Positions 21,457-27,818 of a DNA stretch of 64,000 nt are shown one piece after another. Position 1 is the stretch's first letter. The number at the start of each line of letters is the position of its first letter. The translations under genes were made by a program, and so were the position numbers. The notes under the pieces were generated by a model that worked only from the letters and a program-made list of their open reading frames with translations, had not been told where the DNA came from and searched no databases. Source of the stretch: Bradyrhizobium sp. ISRA464 (GTDB lineage: Bacteria > Pseudomonadota > Alphaproteobacteria > Rhizobiales > Xanthobacteraceae); assembly GCF_029910095.1 (NCBI RefSeq), contig NZ_CP094526.1, positions 3,720,001 through 3,784,000 on the forward strand. Direction: 5' to 3'.

Positions 21457-21690
21457 ATGAAAGCTCTGTTGATGGCTGTGTCGATGCTCATGCTCGGTAT
21501 CGGCCCAGCGGCAGCGACAAACGAGTGCGGGCCCGGCTGCCATGCCACGATCAACGGTGCGTGCGTCGTGGACGGCTGGGGCACCGGGGCGCGCGTCTGG
21601 AATGAATGCCCTGCGGGATCCCATCCTCGCCCGCCGTGTCCGGCGGACTATGTCTGGCACGCGCAGATGCGCGCCTGTTTCCCGAGGTAG
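21457..21690 (+). CDS. Small secreted Cys-rich protein (77 aa)
   Basis: A 77-residue protein with a Sec signal peptide (MKALLMAVSMLMLGIGPAAA, cleavage likely after AAA) and a short mature part containing six cysteines in the pattern NECGPGCHATINGACVVDGW, then ECPAG, RPPCP and RACFPR. The CGPGCH motif recalls the GCG_CRPN-type secreted peptides of Bradyrhizobiaceae. The cysteines probably form disulfides in the periplasm. GGGAAGGGCAG precedes the ATG. Function unknown. Confidence 0.75.
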   Translation: MKALLMAVSMLMLGIGPAAATNECGPGCHATINGACVVDGWGTGARVWNECPAGSHPRPPCPADYVWHAQMRACFPR

Positions 21691-21808
21691 CGCGCATCCT
21701 GGAGAGGCGGATCACGTTCCGAAGGCGGCAACCTGGTTCGCAAGAATGGTGTGCAACCATTCGTTAACCATAGCGGTTGAGCAGAGGTGACATCGCACGG
21801 AGGCGGTC

Positions 21809-22090
21809 ATGACCGGGAAGATGTTGATTCTCGCGATGTTGGTGAGCGCAATCGGGTTGGACTTCACGCTCGGATATATCCTGGGTCTGCTGGGATTTCG
21901 ACCTCTGACGCTCGCGCGCCGTGGCAAGGCTGTCCGGCCGTCCCGCGCTAGGGAATTTCTTGAGCGGCTGGCGGGAGATACGACAGGACTGTTTGCCAAA
22001 GTTCCCGCGGTTCCAGGGCGCGTTCGGACTGCCGATCGATCTTCCCGAACCGGGAGCGGCGGGTTGGGCGGATTGCGTGCTCCCCGGTGA
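21809..22090 (+). CDS. Hypothetical protein with N-terminal membrane helix (93 aa)
   Basis: An open frame of 93 codons beginning with a plausible membrane helix (ILAMLVSAIGLDFTLGYILG) followed by a basic, low-complexity tail. The first 35 residues look real; the Gly/Ser/Arg-rich end does not, so it may be a degraded gene. A GAGGCGGTC stretch precedes the ATG. It sits at the left edge of the fluoride island. Confidence 0.4.
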   Translation: MTGKMLILAMLVSAIGLDFTLGYILGLLGFRPLTLARRGKAVRPSRAREFLERLAGDTTGLFAKVPAVPGRVRTADRSSRTGSGGLGGLRAPR

Positions 22091-22264
22091 AAGGTTGCAG
22101 GAAGCTGCTTGTAGAGATCGAGAAGGGTCATTCGTGTCGAGTCGGCCGCGCCCGGTCATGTCTGGTCGAGCCCTCGCAGCCGACATGTGGAGAGCACCCC
22201 ATTTTGTCACGTGTCTGGGGAGTCCGATCCCGAGCGCGCGGCACGCCTTCGGTCCTCGCTCTCC

Positions 22265-22950
22265 CTATTCTCGGAAAGGGCTTTTGAAGATTGCCACTGA
22301 TCCGAGCTCCCGCTCGATTTCGAGCAGGCGGTTGTATTTGGCGAGTCGTTCGCTGCGTGACAGCGAGCCTGCCTTGATTTGTCCGCCGCCCATTGCGACT
22401 GCGAAATCAGCAATGAACGTGTCTTCGGTCTCGCCAGATCTGTGCGAGACGACGTATTGCCAGCCTGCCTGCCGGCACATTTCTATGGCTTTGATCGTCT
22501 CCGAAACTGTGCCGATTTGATTGAGTTTGATCAGAACGGCGTTCGTTGCCCGGCTGTCGATGCCCTTTTGAATGAAGCGAGGGTTAGTTACGTAGAGATC
22601 GTCGCCGACGATTTGAATTTGATCGCCGCAGGCTGCAGTTTGCATCCGGAAGCCGTCCCAATCGTCCTCGGCGAAGCCATCCTCGATCGAAACTATTGGG
22701 TAGCTATCCAACAGGCGATTGTAGATCGCGAGCAGCTCTTCGCGCGAGATGGCTTTGTTTTCCGTGCCATCGAGTGCGATCAGGGCCGCATCGATCGATT
22801 CTTGGCGCGTGTCGGTCATGCCTGCGAGGCGATCTCGGATGACACCATTGACGTGTCCAACCGCCTTGAACACGCCTTTTCCGCCATATCGGGATATGTC
22901 GCCGTCTCGAAGTTCAAGCGCCTCGTGCCGTCCCGTCGAGGCCCCGGGAG
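22265..22950 (-). pseudogene. eno: Enolase remnant with internal deletion
   Basis: The frame encodes enolase residues starting inside the N-terminal domain ([17 protein letters not shown], then [12 protein letters not shown] and [11 protein letters not shown]). It then jumps directly to the second half of the barrel ([58 protein letters not shown]). About 150 residues in the middle, including the general acid Glu and the first metal Asp of the active site, are missing, as is the extreme N-terminus. The last dozen residues are atypical. It cannot be a working glycolytic enolase. Enolase genes are known companions of fluoride-resistance loci because fluoride inhibits enolase. Confidence 0.9.
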
Positions 22951-23133
22951 CTTCACGCCCATGTCGTGGCTGGCCATCCTGTTCGCGACATCGTGGACTT
23001 CGCGACCAAGATCAGGGCCGAACTCCTGGTCATTGGGGCGACCGGCCATTCGGCGCTCTATGAACGCCTGATAGGCAGCCGCGCCGATCGCATCGTGCAA
23101 CTCGCGCGTTGCCCGGTGCTGGTCGTAAAGTAG
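22951..23133 (+). pseudogene. Universal stress protein (UspA) C-terminal fragment
   Basis: About 60 codons encode only the second half of a Usp domain: [35 protein letters not shown] and RCPVLVVK, ending TAG at 23131. The GxxGHS(x)9GS-type ATP-binding loop is present, but the N-terminal strands are absent. The fragment begins exactly where the opposite-strand enolase remnant stops, so both were cut at one rearrangement junction. Usp genes are recorded neighbours of fluoride riboswitches and crcB. Confidence 0.8.
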
Positions 23134-23193
23134 AGGTGCGTGCCGCAGAGGATGAACCGAGCAGGGTTGCTCGACAAAAGCAGGATTAGAGAA

Positions 23194-23550
23194 ATGCAAC
23201 TTCAGCGAGACGCGGTCTTGTTGAGAATCTTCTTCGGAGAAGAAGACAGAGCGAACCATCTGCCCCTATACGAGGCGATCGTGCTCAAAGCGCGGGAGAT
23301 GCATCTCGCTGGTGCTACAGTGCTGCGAGGACATCTTGGGTTTGGTCATTCGACACGGCTGCATACAACGAAGATACTGCGCCTTTCGGAGGATCTTCCA
23401 GTGATTGTGGAGATCGTTGACACGCAGGAACAGATTGACCGCTTCCTTCCCGTCCTTGACCAGCTGATGAGCAGCGGACTTGTGACAATCGAGAAGGTGC
23501 AGGTCCTGCAATATGGCTCCGAAATGGCGCCCCCGGCGACGAAGGCATGA
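23194..23550 (+). CDS. DUF190 family protein, copy 1
   Basis: A 118-residue soluble protein of the DUF190 family, predicted to have a PII-like ferredoxin fold. Seen are LLRIFFGEEDR, LYEAIVLKAREMHLAGATVLRG, FGHSTRLHTTKILRLSEDLP and the C-terminal SGLVTIEKVQVLQYG. The start at 23194 matches that of the second copy. DUF190 genes often sit next to crcB, and a regulatory or accessory role with the fluoride channel is a reasonable inference; no biochemical function is established. It points towards copy 2 on the opposite strand, with which it shares most residues. Confidence 0.88.
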   Translation: MQLQRDAVLLRIFFGEEDRANHLPLYEAIVLKAREMHLAGATVLRGHLGFGHSTRLHTTKILRLSEDLPVIVEIVDTQEQIDRFLPVLDQLMSSGLVTIEKVQVLQYGSEMAPPATKA

Positions 23551-23724
23551 GGTGCTCGCCGCAAGAACCGTCAGCCGTCAGGATCCGTCGATCGATGCCG
23601 CGCAGCGAATTGCCTCGCGAGAATTGCTTACCTGATGAGCGATGTGTTCGAAGACAATCGGACGCTCCTTTAGAACCTCAAGCCCAAGGTCTGCCATAGA
23701 TCGAGTGCATGAGAGAGAGCTCGA

Positions 23725-24066
23725 TCATGTTACGGCAGTTCCTCCATATTGCAGCACTTGGACCTTCTCAAGCGTGATGAGCCCGCTGGACATCATGTCG
23801 TCGAGCACCGGGAGGAAACGATTGATGTTATCCTCGCTATCGACGATCTCTATGACCAGAGGCAAATCTTCCGAAAGCCGCAGGATCTTGGCCGTGTGAA
23901 GACGGCTCGACTTGCCGAAGCCCATCGGGCCCCGAAGCACGGTGGCCCCGGCGAGGTGTTGCTCGCGCGCTTTCATCACGATGGATTCATGCAGGGGGCG
24001 TCCCTCGAATTGATCGTTCTCGCCAATGAATATCCGGAGCAGGAGCGCGTGTTTCGGAATTTGCAT
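23725..24066 (-). CDS. DUF190 family protein, copy 2
   Basis: A 113-residue paralogue of copy 1 (LLRIFIGENDQ, HESIVMKAREQHLAGATVLRG, FGKSSRLHTAKILRLSEDLP, SGLITLEKVQVLQYGG). It starts 2 nt after the stop of a crcB gene on the same strand, making it the last gene of the crcB-crcB-DUF190 operon. The tight spacing indicates co-translation and supports a function with the fluoride channel. Confidence 0.9.
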   Translation of the reverse strand: MQIPKHALLLRIFIGENDQFEGRPLHESIVMKAREQHLAGATVLRGPMGFGKSSRLHTAKILRLSEDLPLVIEIVDSEDNINRFLPVLDDMMSSGLITLEKVQVLQYGGTAVT

Positions 24067-24068
24067 GA

Positions 24069-24509
24069 CTAGGTCCTTTTCAACCGATTGAGACGAGCAG
24101 CGAGCGTGTGTCCGAGCCACACGGCGAGCAGCCAGCAGAGGACGGAGGCGAGGATGTTGGCGAGCGCCGTGTGCGTCAGGCCGGCATGGAACAGTCTGAA
24201 TGTTTCAAGGCTGAAGGTCGAGAAGGTCGTATAGCCTCCGCAGAACCCCGTCATGACGAATTGCCGTTGCCTAACACCGGCAAACATCCGACCGTCCGGA
24301 CCACTGAGTGTCGCGTAGAAGCCGATTACGAATGAGCCGGTTGCGTTAATAAAGAGCGTTGACCAAGGAAAACCGGGGCCAGTTTGAATCACCAGCGCGA
24401 CCAGAAAACGGGCCACGCCGCCCAGAACGCTGCCGGCCGCCACGCAGGCATAAAGCGCTGCGGTGCCCCGCCATTGACCGGAGGATTTCGATGATTTCGA
24501 TATCGTCAT
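24069..24509 (-). CDS. crcB: Fluoride exporter CrcB/Fluc, second subunit gene
   Basis: A 146-residue four-helix membrane protein forming half of a dual-topology fluoride channel that lets F- leave the cytoplasm. The family signatures are GGVARFLVALVIQTG near the N-terminus, FPWSTLFINATGSFVIGF (pore Asn) and GFCGGYTTFSTFSLETF (both phenylalanines of the Phe box present). It follows the other crcB by 12 nt and precedes DUF190 by 2 nt, in one operon behind a fluoride riboswitch. Confidence 0.95.
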   Translation of the reverse strand: MTISKSSKSSGQWRGTAALYACVAAGSVLGGVARFLVALVIQTGPGFPWSTLFINATGSFVIGFYATLSGPDGRMFAGVRQRQFVMTGFCGGYTTFSTFSLETFRLFHAGLTHTALANILASVLCWLLAVWLGHTLAARLNRLKRT

Positions 24510-24521
24510 CGCGGGCGCCCC

Positions 24522-24917
24522 TCAGCCGGTCAACCGTTCGGCCAGCCGAAAGCCGGAGGTGACTGCGCCAAGGCAAAGTGCGACCGACAAAAGAATGTTG
24601 CCTGCCGCACGGGAGAATTCACCATCGCGAGCGAGTGCGAGAGTTTGCAGGCTGAAGGATGACACGGTCGTATAACAACCGAGAAAGCCCGTCACAGCGA
24701 ACAGCCATGGCGCCGGCGATGCCATCAGAGATGTGTTGTTCACTGCCATGGCCCCGACGATGCCGATGACGAACGCCCCGCTGACGTTGACAGTCATCGT
24801 TCCCCACGGAAACGTTTCACCCATATGCCGGGCTACCACACCCGACACAAAGTAGCGCGAGATGCCTCCCAATATGCATCCGACCAGTAGACAAATGGAT
24901 CCGCTTAGCAATTGCAC
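24522..24917 (-). CDS. crcB: Fluoride exporter CrcB/Fluc, first subunit gene
   Basis: A 131-residue CrcB protein with GCILGGISRYFVSGV, FPWGTMTVNVSGAFVIGI (pore Asn) and GFLGCYTTVSSFSLQT. Here the first Phe of the TFSTF pore motif is Val, unlike the neighbouring subunit, which suggests that the two gene products form an asymmetric heterodimer. It lies 33 nt downstream of a small membrane-protein gene and about 600 nt downstream of the fluoride riboswitch, all on the minus strand. Confidence 0.95.
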   Translation of the reverse strand: MQLLSGSICLLVGCILGGISRYFVSGVVARHMGETFPWGTMTVNVSGAFVIGIVGAMAVNNTSLMASPAPWLFAVTGFLGCYTTVSSFSLQTLALARDGEFSRAAGNILLSVALCLGAVTSGFRLAERLTG

Positions 24918-24950
24918 GCACTCCCTTCTGCGCTCGATTTTCGACGGTAG

Positions 24951-25211
24951 TCAGCGCTCAAGCTCGATATCCTTCAAGATCATGTGCAGCCGTGCAATCG
25001 CCAGGCCAGCGGCCTGCCATATCGCGGCCATCACGACCATGGTGCCGAGCAACACCTCGATGCCTGTCCGATCGAGTGTTTGAACGCCGATGTTGTCGAG
25101 GAAGAACTGAAAGCCGGCGAGAAGCGCCAGCGTGAAAGCTTGCCGGAGCACCATGTGACGGTCTGCCCAGCGCTTGTGCAATTTGATGATCCGCATCGCC
25201 CCTGGATGCAT
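24951..25211 (-). CDS. Small membrane protein ahead of crcB (86 aa)
   Basis: An 86-residue protein with two hydrophobic segments (FTLALLAGFQFFLDNIGV and VLLGTMVVMAAIWQAAGLAI) flanked by basic N- and C-termini. The start at 25211 follows GGGAG at a good distance; a start five codons later is possible. It is the first recognisable gene after the fluoride riboswitch, and the same strand continues into crcB after 33 nt. Family not recognised; it may be an unnamed member of the fluoride-response operon. Confidence 0.6.
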   Translation of the reverse strand: MHPGAMRIIKLHKRWADRHMVLRQAFTLALLAGFQFFLDNIGVQTLDRTGIEVLLGTMVVMAAIWQAAGLAIARLHMILKDIELER

Positions 25212-25511
25212 TCGCGTCTCCCATCGCCGACATGCTGGAGGGTAAAATGGAGATTACCAGGGATCGGATGCACCGGGCCGAATGCAAGCACTGCCTCGAT
25301 GAGGCACGGCAGAAGGCGCACAGCTACCCTCGTGAATTGCTCCCACTGCATTATTCACGAACTGCGCCGTCGTCATCCGCCTGCGAGGGAGTGATTGAGG
25401 CTGCTGGGTTGATGCGGTCATGTGTTGCCCAAATTCTTGTCCAGGCAACAAAACCCGCCACGCACGGATCCACAACGCTCCGCCGCAGCGAGGCGTTGCC
25501 GCCTCATCTCA
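25212..25511 (-). other. Leader between fluoride aptamer and first gene
   Basis: About 300 nt on the minus strand with no recognisable protein. Just after the aptamer, GAGGCG-GCAA-CGCCTC (25490-25505 in plus coordinates) forms a perfect 6-bp stem with a GCAA loop, a candidate expression-platform element although no U-run follows. Short frames here shift between phases and may be remains of a lost first gene. Confidence 0.45.
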
Positions 25512-25560
25512 GCAGGAGTTATCAGCCCACGTCGGGCGGGTATCGGGGAACCCCATCCCC
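25512..25560 (-). ncRNA. Fluoride riboswitch (crcB motif) aptamer
   Basis: Read on the minus strand from 25560, the RNA has the three parts of the crcB-motif aptamer. A GGGG/CCCC first stem encloses ATGGGGTT. A second stem GCCC-GACGT-GGGC follows. The 3' strand is CTGATAACTCCTGC, closely matching the consensus CTGATGACTCC. The loop sequence GGGGTT can pair with AACTCC to make the required pseudoknot (five Watson-Crick pairs plus one G-U). It lies upstream of a small membrane protein, two crcB genes and DUF190 on the same strand, so it would switch that operon on when fluoride binds. Confidence 0.85.
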
Positions 25561-25802
25561 ATCTTCATTTCAAGGCTAACACGATTGACAATGGAAAGGG
25601 AAGCTCAGTCGCCACGAGAAAGATCTTAGGGATGCTGGTGAGCTCGACAAAGTTGCCGAGACCGTCGCGCATCGCGTTGTAGAGATCAGTGGTATCTGAG
25701 CCGTCGCTGATCGTCGTGCACAAGGAAGGTACCTACCGCAGCAGCCGCACCCCACAATCTGTCGACGCATGGACGGCTGCTGCAAGCCCGACCGCAAAAG
25801 GT

Positions 25803-26222
25803 CTATTGTCTGCGGCCGCTAACAGCAACCAATCTTTGGCAAAGCGAGATGAGCTGCCGGGCGCGCTCGGAGCGCGTCCAGCTCTTCTCGCGCCGAATGC
25901 ACGTCGCCAAGAGCTCAGCCGCGATTGGATTAGCTTCCGCGCGTGGTGTCTCTCGTTGCAGCAGTGCGTCGACGTCCTCGATCGCAACCAAGGTGCGCGA
26001 GCCTTCGGCGGCGGGCAGCAACGTCGCGGTGCCAAGCACGTCAACAGCATACTGAAGGCGTCGAGCCGCAGCGTTGATTCCAATCGTCGATGATGTATTT
26101 GCGAGAGCGTCTCGCACGAGATCGGCAACCAGCGCTTTCGCTGGCTCCAATGGGCGCTCTGATCTCAGAACCGCGTAAACGTTCTCAAGCGCCACCGCCA
26201 ACTGACTGGCCCTCCGCTTCAT
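25803..26222 (-). CDS. Hypothetical protein (139 aa)
   Basis: A 139-residue, mostly helical, soluble-looking frame (SQLAVALENVYAVLRSERPLEP, then VADLVRDALANTSST and AEANPIAAELLATCIRREKS). Composition is protein-like but no family was recognised, and competing frames overlap on the other strand. It lies between tRNA-Ser and the fluoride riboswitch on the minus strand, and could be an island-borne gene or a degraded one. Confidence 0.4.
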   Translation of the reverse strand: MKRRASQLAVALENVYAVLRSERPLEPAKALVADLVRDALANTSSTIGINAAARRLQYAVDVLGTATLLPAAEGSRTLVAIEDVDALLQRETPRAEANPIAAELLATCIRREKSWTRSERARQLISLCQRLVAVSGRRQ

Positions 26223-26453
26223 CGCGCCGAGTGGTTCGCAACGAGAAGCAAATTTCAGATTGGCCGATGATATGGACGAGATCTAAGGGAGTGGCCTTGC
26301 GAAACCAGCAAATGCCGGCCTTGCGTTGTAGATACATGGTGAATCAAGTCCCCTTGCCGCCGGCCGCCCTGGTGGCCGAGCGGTGACAGGGACCTGTGAC
26401 AAATGCCTCCTTTTCGCGAGGCTCGTCCTTCAACGATTTCAAGGGGTTATGGC

Positions 26454-26547
26454 TGGCGGAGACGGAGGGATTCGAACCCTCGATAGGCCTTTACAAGCCT
26501 ATAACGGTTTAGCAAACCGCCGCCTTCAGCCACTCGGCCACGTCTCC
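26454..26547 (-). tRNA. tRNA-Ser (anticodon GCT)
   Basis: The minus strand folds as a class II serine tRNA: acceptor GGAGACG/CGTCTCC, D-arm GTGGCCGAGTGGCTGAAGGC, anticodon arm with loop TTGCTAA (anticodon GCT reading AGC/AGT), a long variable arm (TAGGCTTGTAAAGGCCTA) and the T-arm GAGGGTTCGAATCCCTC. CCA is encoded at 26454-26456. The fluoride island lies beyond its 3' end, the side where tRNA-targeting islands integrate. Confidence 0.97.
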
Positions 26548-26875
26548 AGTGGCGCCGATATGCCCGAGAGGGCGCTAAGCCGCAAGCGGCAGATTCAGAT
26601 TGGGGCAAGGTGATTTGATGGCAGCTCGACTTGACGTCAGGGCCGGGGGCTCGGATCAGGCGCAAACGGCCCGCCGGCTTGCCAGTCAGCCAGCCTGATC
26701 CGGCGCCCGCCAGATGCCAAAATTCGCGGAATTTCTATTCCTGACAATGGCTTACGCAAGCGATCTTGCGCCACATTCGGGCGTCTAGAGCACGTTGTTT
26801 TTGGCTGGAATCGGGATTCCCAGAGGAGGCAATTTCTGATTCAAACTCCATGCTGGAGGACGGAGGCCAGCATGG

Positions 26876-27262
26876 ATGACGCGACCTTATTCGGAAGACA
26901 TCCGCGAGCGGGCCTTGGCGCGAGCTGACGCGGGGGAGACAGTTCGTTCGATTGCAGAGGCGCTACAGATCAGTCCCTCCTGTGTGACGAAGTGGAAGAA
27001 TCTGAGGCGGGATACCGGTAGCCTGTCGCCTGGCAAGATCGGCGGCCACAAGAAGCGGGTTCTATCGGATGCCAACGCCGACTGGCTGCGCAAACGCATT
27101 CGCTCGGGGCCATTCACCTTGCGCAAGCTGACACAGGAGCTGGCTGCACGCGGGATCAAGACAGACGTGCGGGCGGTGTGGACTTTTGTTCACACCGAGG
27201 GGCTCAGCTTCAAAAAAAACGCTTCTACCAGCCGAGCAGGATCGCCCCGACGTCGCCCGTAA
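26876..27262 (+). CDS. IS630 transposase, N-terminal part (helix-turn-helix)
   Basis: A 128-residue frame with the DNA-binding half of an IS630 transposase: MTRPYSEDIRERALARADAG, the helix-turn-helix SIAEALQISPSCVTKWKN and a second HTH-like region TLRKLTQELAARGIK. It continues in another frame at an A8 run (27212-27219), after which the encoded residues become nonsense. The start follows GGAGG. Confidence 0.88.
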   Translation: MTRPYSEDIRERALARADAGETVRSIAEALQISPSCVTKWKNLRRDTGSLSPGKIGGHKKRVLSDANADWLRKRIRSGPFTLRKLTQELAARGIKTDVRAVWTFVHTEGLSFKKNASTSRAGSPRRRP

Positions 27263-27818
27263 GCGGACCCGCTGGAAAGCACATCAAGGCAGGATCGACG
27301 TAGCGCGGTTGGTTTTTATCGACGAGACGTGGATCAAAACCAATATGGCGCCGCTGCGCGGCTGGGGGCCCTGTGGGCAGCGCCTCCAAGCATCTGCGCC
27401 TTTCGGTCATTGGAAGACCATGACCTTCATCGCGGCGCTGCGTCACGATCGGATCAGCGCGCCTTGGGTGATCGATGGTCCCATCAATGGTGAGTTCTTC
27501 ACGCTGTACGTCGAGAAGGTGTTGGCACCCACCCTCGCACCGGGCGAGATCGTCATCCTCGACAATCTTGGCAGCCATAAGGGCAAAGCGGCTCGCCAAG
27601 CCATCCGCGCCAGAGGCGCCCACCGCATCTTCCTCCCGCCCTATAGCCCTGACCTCAATCCGATCGAGCAGGTCTTCGCCAAACTCAAACACCTCATGCG
27701 AGCTGCAGAGCCTCGTGACGTGGAGGCAACCTGGCGAAAGGCCGGTGAACTCCTCGATCTCTTCTCCAAGGAGGAGTGCACCAACTACTTCAAAAACTCA
27801 GGTTACGTTTCCGTATAA
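27186..27818 (+). CDS. IS630 transposase, catalytic DDE part
   Basis: This frame carries the DDE nuclease: first Asp in LVFIDETWIKTNMA, second Asp in VILDNLGSHKG and the Glu in PDLNPIEQVFAKLKH. Family sequence resumes right after the A8 run (KKTLLPAEQDRPDVARKR), so the functional product is probably made by frameshift or transcriptional slippage from the upstream frame rather than from its own start. If slippage does not occur, the transposase is inactive. Confidence 0.88.
   Translation: MFTPRGSASKKTLLPAEQDRPDVARKRTRWKAHQGRIDVARLVFIDETWIKTNMAPLRGWGPCGQRLQASAPFGHWKTMTFIAALRHDRISAPWVIDGPINGEFFTLYVEKVLAPTLAPGEIVILDNLGSHKGKAARQAIRARGAHRIFLPPYSPDLNPIEQVFAKLKHLMRAAEPRDVEATWRKAGELLDLFSKEECTNYFKNSGYVSV

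Follow-up and report, generated by a model that had tools for sequence, protein, structure and literature searches.

The window, i.e., the whole stretch of 64,000 nucleotides that was analysed, contains on its minus strand what is, by its sequence, a genuine fluoride riboswitch, and its aptamer is predicted to bind fluoride. This sensor part appears intact. We consider the chances about even that the aptamer has stayed intact, the intrinsic terminator behind it has decayed and the intrinsic OFF state has largely been lost; in the best reading, the two crcB genes of this genome are leaky or are controlled otherwise. The sequence-only reading, which placed a riboswitch ahead of fluoride channel genes, is supported to that extent, but it is incomplete, as the gene-control part departs from that of the closest relatives, and neither the expression platform (25518-25450) nor an 86-aa frame (25211-24951) had been mentioned. 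The aptamer as such is unremarkable. Comparison with relatives yields a testable four-strand model of transcription end for many Bradyrhizobium fluoride riboswitches, and the window would be one natural variant, with the aptamer kept and the terminator worn. As such, it would show RNA control changing or eroding after an operon rearrangement on a decaying genomic island.

The aptamer and the genes downstream

An Rfam cmscan of the whole window matched the fluoride riboswitch model RF01734 at 25569-25506 on the minus strand with 53.0 bits (E 7.7e-12), against a gathering score (cut-off) of 34 bits. The match is full length (model positions 1-64), with 0 non-standard pairs marked. The covariance-model search by which the earlier identification was to be checked thus returned a strong match, and the proposed fluoride riboswitch on this strand is borne out. 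The features of the aptamer and of the operon are the following.

25506-25569 (-): fluoride riboswitch aptamer (RF01734); 53.0 bits, and the same 53 bits in a search of its own genome
25549 (-): U of the pseudoknot; 75 of 77 aligned sequences have C here and one has a gap
25520 (-): flagged A of CTGATA, paired with U 25549; C-G to U-A, changed on both sides
25404-25421 (-): first codons of a lost MFS transporter gene, with the ATG at 25421; from similarity to genome G452 and the sequence of locus L067
24951-25211 (-): 86-aa frame, putative membrane protein, between the aptamer and crcB1
24522-24917 (-): crcB1, fluoride channel subunit; PF02537 83.7 bits, NF010799 193.9 bits
24069-24509 (-): crcB2, fluoride channel subunit; PF02537 93.4 bits, NF010802 144.2 bits
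23725-24066 (-): DUF190 protein; PF02641 138.4 bits on a longer frame from 24120

On the minus strand, P1 consists of GGGG (25560-25557) with CCCC (25548-25545), P2 of GCCC (25537-25534) with GGGC (25528-25525), and the pseudoknot of GGGGTT (25554-25549) with AACTCC (25520-25515), which gives six pairs, including one G-U. The stems and the pseudoknot pairing that had been named beforehand are all present in the sequence, and according to the sequence, the cmscan and the pair counts in the alignment all three can form in the window. Like other members of RF01734, the window matches the model over its full length, with P1, P2 and the pseudoknot, ahead of crcB genes; it differs by a U-A pair at the inner end of the pseudoknot, where most aligned relatives have C-G.

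This pair contains the deviation at CTGATA, which had been read correctly from the letters, the deviant base being the A at 25520. In an alignment of 77 rows, the pair 25549-25520 is C-G in 75, U-A in one (the window) and gapped in one. Among 117 distinct aptamers, i.e., those that could be parsed from the fetched loci, it is C-G in 91, U-G in 21, U-A in two (the window and L172), G-G in two, A-G in one and C-A in none. The A is thus found in two of the 117 aptamers, opposite U both times and never opposite C, and the deviation therefore leaves the case for a riboswitch unweakened. Judged from these counts, it is a compensated change, which favours the structure. Since three of the 117 aptamers have no standard pair here, the pair is not strictly required. 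A reading of CTGATA as the sign of a broken aptamer, or of one for a different ligand, was rejected because the pair is compensated.

The downstream genes are fluoride-resistance genes, two with CRCB domains and one with DUF190; Pfam confirms the predicted order crcB-crcB-DUF190 on the same strand. A search of the whole genome revealed just these two CRCB genes. The DUF190 protein likely starts at the ATG at 24066, directly after crcB2, within a Pfam-matched frame of 24120-23725.

The aptamer is separated from the 86-aa frame by a leader of about 294-295 nt. The product of this frame had neither Pfam nor NCBIfam matches, and a scan of genome contigs yielded no relatives. Among the tblastn matches listed, a relative (51% over residues 26-85) lies directly upstream of crcB1 in L143, where its coding sequence is broken into two frames; the translation of L095 shows the last part of a similar protein. 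DNA similarity to G452 (78%) spans the platform up to 25404 and thereby extends into the MFS gene, of which only the first codons are left in the window.

The expression platform in relatives and in the window

Eighty loci were fetched by similarity to crcB1, and 67 of them have an MFS transporter gene upstream of crcB1 (the copy in L098 matches MFS_1 with 126.9 bits). Among the loci listed, MFS-crcB-crcB-DUF190 is the usual operon behind a platform of the terminator type. Upstream of the MFS gene, the aptamer core was found in all 67 stretches with a loose pattern and in 60 with a stricter one, and a terminator with a positive score is present in all 67.

In these relatives, the aptamer ends with CTCCTGC (element 1) and is followed by an inner hairpin, GGCGGGAG (element 2), AACCCGCC (element 3) and GGCGGGTTTTTT (element 4). 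Pairing is possible between elements 1 and 2, 2 and 3, and 3 and 4. As these pairings share strands, 1:2 together with the terminator 3:4 excludes the antiterminator 2:3. When fluoride is absent, element 1 (CTCCTGC) would pair with element 2 (GCGGGAG), thus freeing elements 3 and 4 for the terminator AACCCGCC/GGCGGGTTTTTT, and transcription would stop. When fluoride is present, the pseudoknot would hold element 1, and element 2 (GGCGGG) would pair with element 3 (CCCGCC), so that transcription could proceed into the operon. We infer the order of folding and the direction of switching from this anatomy. The sections of Weinberg et al. (2010; PMC2864571) on which we draw describe a terminator overlapping the aptamer in many crcB RNAs, where, likewise, stabilisation of the aptamer should keep the terminator from forming; in contrast to the terminators described in those sections, the hairpin in the window starts approximately 36 nt past the Rfam match and is reached via element 2.

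The alignment was based on 78 distinct sequences of the terminator type. L032, which belongs to another genus of the family and has another platform, was dropped, leaving 77 rows (the window and 76 relatives), and 96 matches without such a terminator were left out. The ON-state pairs are formed in 99.7% of the cells and the OFF-state pairs in 98.3%, as compared to 37-60% in slid controls. Most platform pairs barely vary, and these percentages therefore reflect chiefly the conservation of complementary strands. Changes on both sides of a pair are few: in the ON state, two pairs with one cell each and, in the OFF state, one pair with three cells. Both ON-state changes (C-G to U-A and G-C to A-U) occur in a single sequence, which is the window row. 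In the test of the ON state, a +3 slide exceeded the structure in covariation score (0.037 versus 0.023), and in the tests of both states further pair types were no more numerous than in shuffles. For the OFF state, 64 of 500 shuffles and two slides also reached one pair with a both-sided change. Covariation support for the platform is thus thin.

The window has the same four elements in the same order and the same crcB-crcB-DUF190 tail as the listed Bradyrhizobium loci with this platform, but it has lost the MFS gene, contains the 86-aa frame and has an eroded terminator.

25512-25518 (-): element 1, aptamer 3' strand CTCCTGC, presumed to pair with element 2 when the switch is OFF; from the alignment and pair counts
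25478-25484 (-): element 2, GGCGGAG (GGCGGGAG in relatives), putative antiterminator strand; from the alignment, folding and pair counts
25464-25469 (-): element 3, ATCCGT (mostly ACCCGC in relatives), putative 5' arm of the terminator; from the alignment, folding and pair counts
25450-25459 (-): element 4, GGCGGGTTTT, putative 3' arm of the terminator with a tract of 4 T; from the alignment, folding and scores

The T tract counts 4 residues in the window versus mostly 6 in relatives. When each hairpin was folded alone, the terminator reached -8.0 kcal/mol in the window versus a mean of -13.4 (sd 0.7) in relatives, and the antiterminator -7.4 versus -12.0 (sd 1.1), with none of the 76 relatives weaker in either case; the OFF hairpin reached -25.7 versus -30.0 (sd 2.1), with two of the 76 weaker. 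The terminator score, calculated with a formula that is uncalibrated in this analysis, is -23.7 in the window; none of the 76 other aligned sequences scores below 18.8. Since the 77 rows had been selected by a terminator pattern, the comparison was repeated on the 67 loci selected by their MFS gene and not by a terminator; their minimum is 22.7 and their median 36.9. A stable terminator hairpin with a T tract is thus lacking in the window. Nevertheless, each of the three strand-sharing pairings 1:2, 2:3 and 3:4 can form, the latter two being the weakest of the 77, and the terminator hairpin still has 7 pairs, three of which are G-U. A single-strand fold of 25573-25424 (-71.1 kcal/mol, z -5.17) pairs a P2 strand with element 4; being blind to the pseudoknot and to the order of synthesis, it was weighed neither for nor against.

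In the window, two ON-state pairs would thus have been kept by changes on both sides, i.e., the U-A pair of the pseudoknot and an A-U pair between elements 2 and 3, and the terminator hairpin and its T tract would have eroded, with the MFS gene lost. Given the eroded terminator, transcription of crcB-crcB-DUF190 probably meets little intrinsic termination here, and from this we infer a loss of repression. The antiterminator is also the weakest of the 77 and, hence, the loss is not confined to the OFF side. Plain decay is opposed by the 7-pair hairpin, which might retain partial function. A wider proposal is less probable than that of a decayed terminator: the riboswitch may stand between two control modes, with the ligand fold and part of the antiterminator kept by compensation and the terminator let go after the loss of the first gene, and the exporter may now be constitutive or under terminator-free control.

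Other modes of control

The best surviving alternative is control without any terminator, in which the aptamer acts together with a long leader, e.g., via access of Rho to the untranslated leader, and toward which the platform of the window would be shifting. Rho control is known from other riboswitches. At five of the 13 crcB1 loci without an MFS gene, a loose pattern placed an aptamer on the same strand at a distance of 199-885 nt upstream, and the best terminator scores at these five loci range from -65.7 to -27.4, none being above zero. All five are thus negative like the window, which means that a missing terminator need not imply missing control, and this lowers the odds for the decay reading. 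In four of them (L133, L143, L167 and L172), a CTCC is followed by GGTAGGAG and then by a second CTCCT, which would leave a choice between 1:2 and 2:3 pairing without an element 4. However, the sequence in the window is of the terminator type, the platform sequences of the five loci are different, the other eight of the 13 loci have no aptamer on that strand by the loose pattern, and the involvement of Rho is extrapolated from other riboswitches. We consider this mode unlikely for the window.

At the four loci, the terminator-free platform lies 259-885 nt ahead of crcB1 in operons without an MFS gene. To judge from the letters, the GGTAGGAG strand could pair either with the CTCC of the aptamer or with the second CTCCT strand, and crcB operons of this kind may be controlled without an intrinsic terminator.

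It is somewhat less probable still that intrinsic termination continues to work, with a weakened terminator that suffices and mutually tuned changes in elements 2, 3 and 4. The intact aptamer, the three alternative helices that can each still form and the both-sided changes preserving ON pairs agree with such a working switch, but a terminator that is the weakest of 77, with a tract of 4 T, does not.

Translational control appears improbable. In this case, the GGAG in element 2 (25481-25478) would be the ribosome-binding site of a short leader frame and would be masked by element 1 when fluoride is absent. Candidate starts are a TTG at 25475, which opens an existing frame of 73 aa, and a GTG at 25473, and a crude classifier assigns the window to the 29 matches, out of 130 distinct ones, that show a ribosome-site pattern. 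However, Pfam gave no match for the leader frame, which stops 42 bases short of the 86-aa frame, and the GGAG pattern is short enough to occur by chance.

The region upstream of the aptamer contains a candidate promoter box.

25574-25579 (-): putative -10 box TTAGCC; from right-justified upstream sequences of relatives

Relatives (40 listed of 76, the window included) have TTGtcC- and TGCTAG-like boxes at fixed upstream positions, which presumably are promoter boxes. TTAGCC is kept in the window, as in L064 and L065, and CCCTTT stands where these two have TTGACC, so that the -35 position, in register with TTGACC/TTGTCC of relatives, is degenerate. A simple sigma-70 scan, which is weak, detected no promoter-like site in 23500-25750 on either strand. 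The degenerate -35 position and the leader of about 294-295 nt would suit a relic RNA that is ignored by a crcB operon with another promoter between 25450 and 24917, but the end-to-end fit of the aptamer to the model, its compensated odd base and the outcome of the promoter scan make this the least probable explanation of all. A decayed terminator behind an intact aptamer remains the preferred reading.

The putative island and other fluoride riboswitches

Several genes and gene fragments surround the operon.

26457-26547 (-): tRNA-Ser (GCT), possible integration site; from the Rfam scan of the window
26188-26337 (-): DUF6538 fragment; PF20172 39.1 bits, after which the frame stops
23140-23550 (+): second DUF190 gene, on the opposite strand; PF02641 132.2 bits
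22900-23130 (+): C-terminal fragment of a universal stress protein (Usp); PF00582 positions 79-141 of 141, 60.6 bits
22265-22873 (-): truncated, internally deleted enolase; Enolase_N 63-101 directly followed by Enolase_C 126-288

DUF6538 we take to be the N-terminal part of integrases. Enolase is a known fluoride target; the copy in the window lacks a central segment as well as the greater part of its N-terminal region, and a full-length enolase is present elsewhere in the genome. Together with the fragments of an integrase, an enolase and a Usp, the tRNA-Ser suggests a fluoride-resistance island that is eroding. When a copy of the 3' end of the tRNA was sought as the far end of the island, the tRNA itself was the only match within the window. 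Region 21600-26600 matched 85 plasmid records, none covering 80% of it; among the best 20 of the 85, 15 matched at the enolase, two at crcB-DUF190 and three where no gene is annotated. Two overlapping frames at 26876-27818 (+) presumably encode an IS630-type transposase.

RF01734 matches were found in 146 of 195 genomes of the same genus (144 with a match over the cut-off) and in 134 of 295 genomes of the same family (129 over the cut-off). The site in the window is the best match of its own genome. The second, at 5968171-5968231 (+), scores 32.1 bits, which is under the cut-off of 34. In this second aptamer (L199 2172-2232), the P1 loop begins with GA rather than AU, and a TAGGAGG complementary to its 3' strand lies just ahead of the ATG of a 259-aa frame, the product of which has no Pfam match. 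DNA matching the L199 stretch was found in five of 257 genomes of the genus, its own included.

In L036, L040, L049, L082 and other loci, the aptamer strand CTCCTAC is complementary to a GTAGGAG near a start codon, and this type of platform in the genus likely exerts translational control. It corresponds to the 29 of 130 matches mentioned above, a number which was obtained with a crude pattern and includes the window.

One genome of the same family, G258, has 21 fluoride riboswitches over the cut-off within 59 kb (L195, L196 and L197; G258:C49:14000-73244); a stricter search of the genome listed 17 RF01734 matches. Pfam matches were obtained for 24 of the 29 scanned frames of contig C49. They include an enolase (the end of which weakly matches Usp), peptide deformylase, dihydroxy-acid dehydratase, cytochrome oxidase subunit I, NADH/Mrp-type antiporter subunits, a phosphate transporter, a CLC channel, NUDIX, MutS, a conjugation coupling protein and two proteins of the histidine-phosphatase superfamily, which we assume to be phosphoglycerate-mutase-like. 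The cluster resembles a mobile island for the response to fluoride that carries spare copies of enzymes sensitive to it. Smaller clusters were found in L198 (G332:C15:9000-28900), with 7 riboswitches over the cut-off and 11 matches in the genome, and in L200 (G021:C139:20000-38000), with 5 over the cut-off and 17 matches in the genome. In L195 (9409-11256, minus strand), a CLC channel and a DUF190 domain are combined in one protein of 615 aa, a fusion that points to a role of DUF190 alongside transporters of fluoride or chloride.
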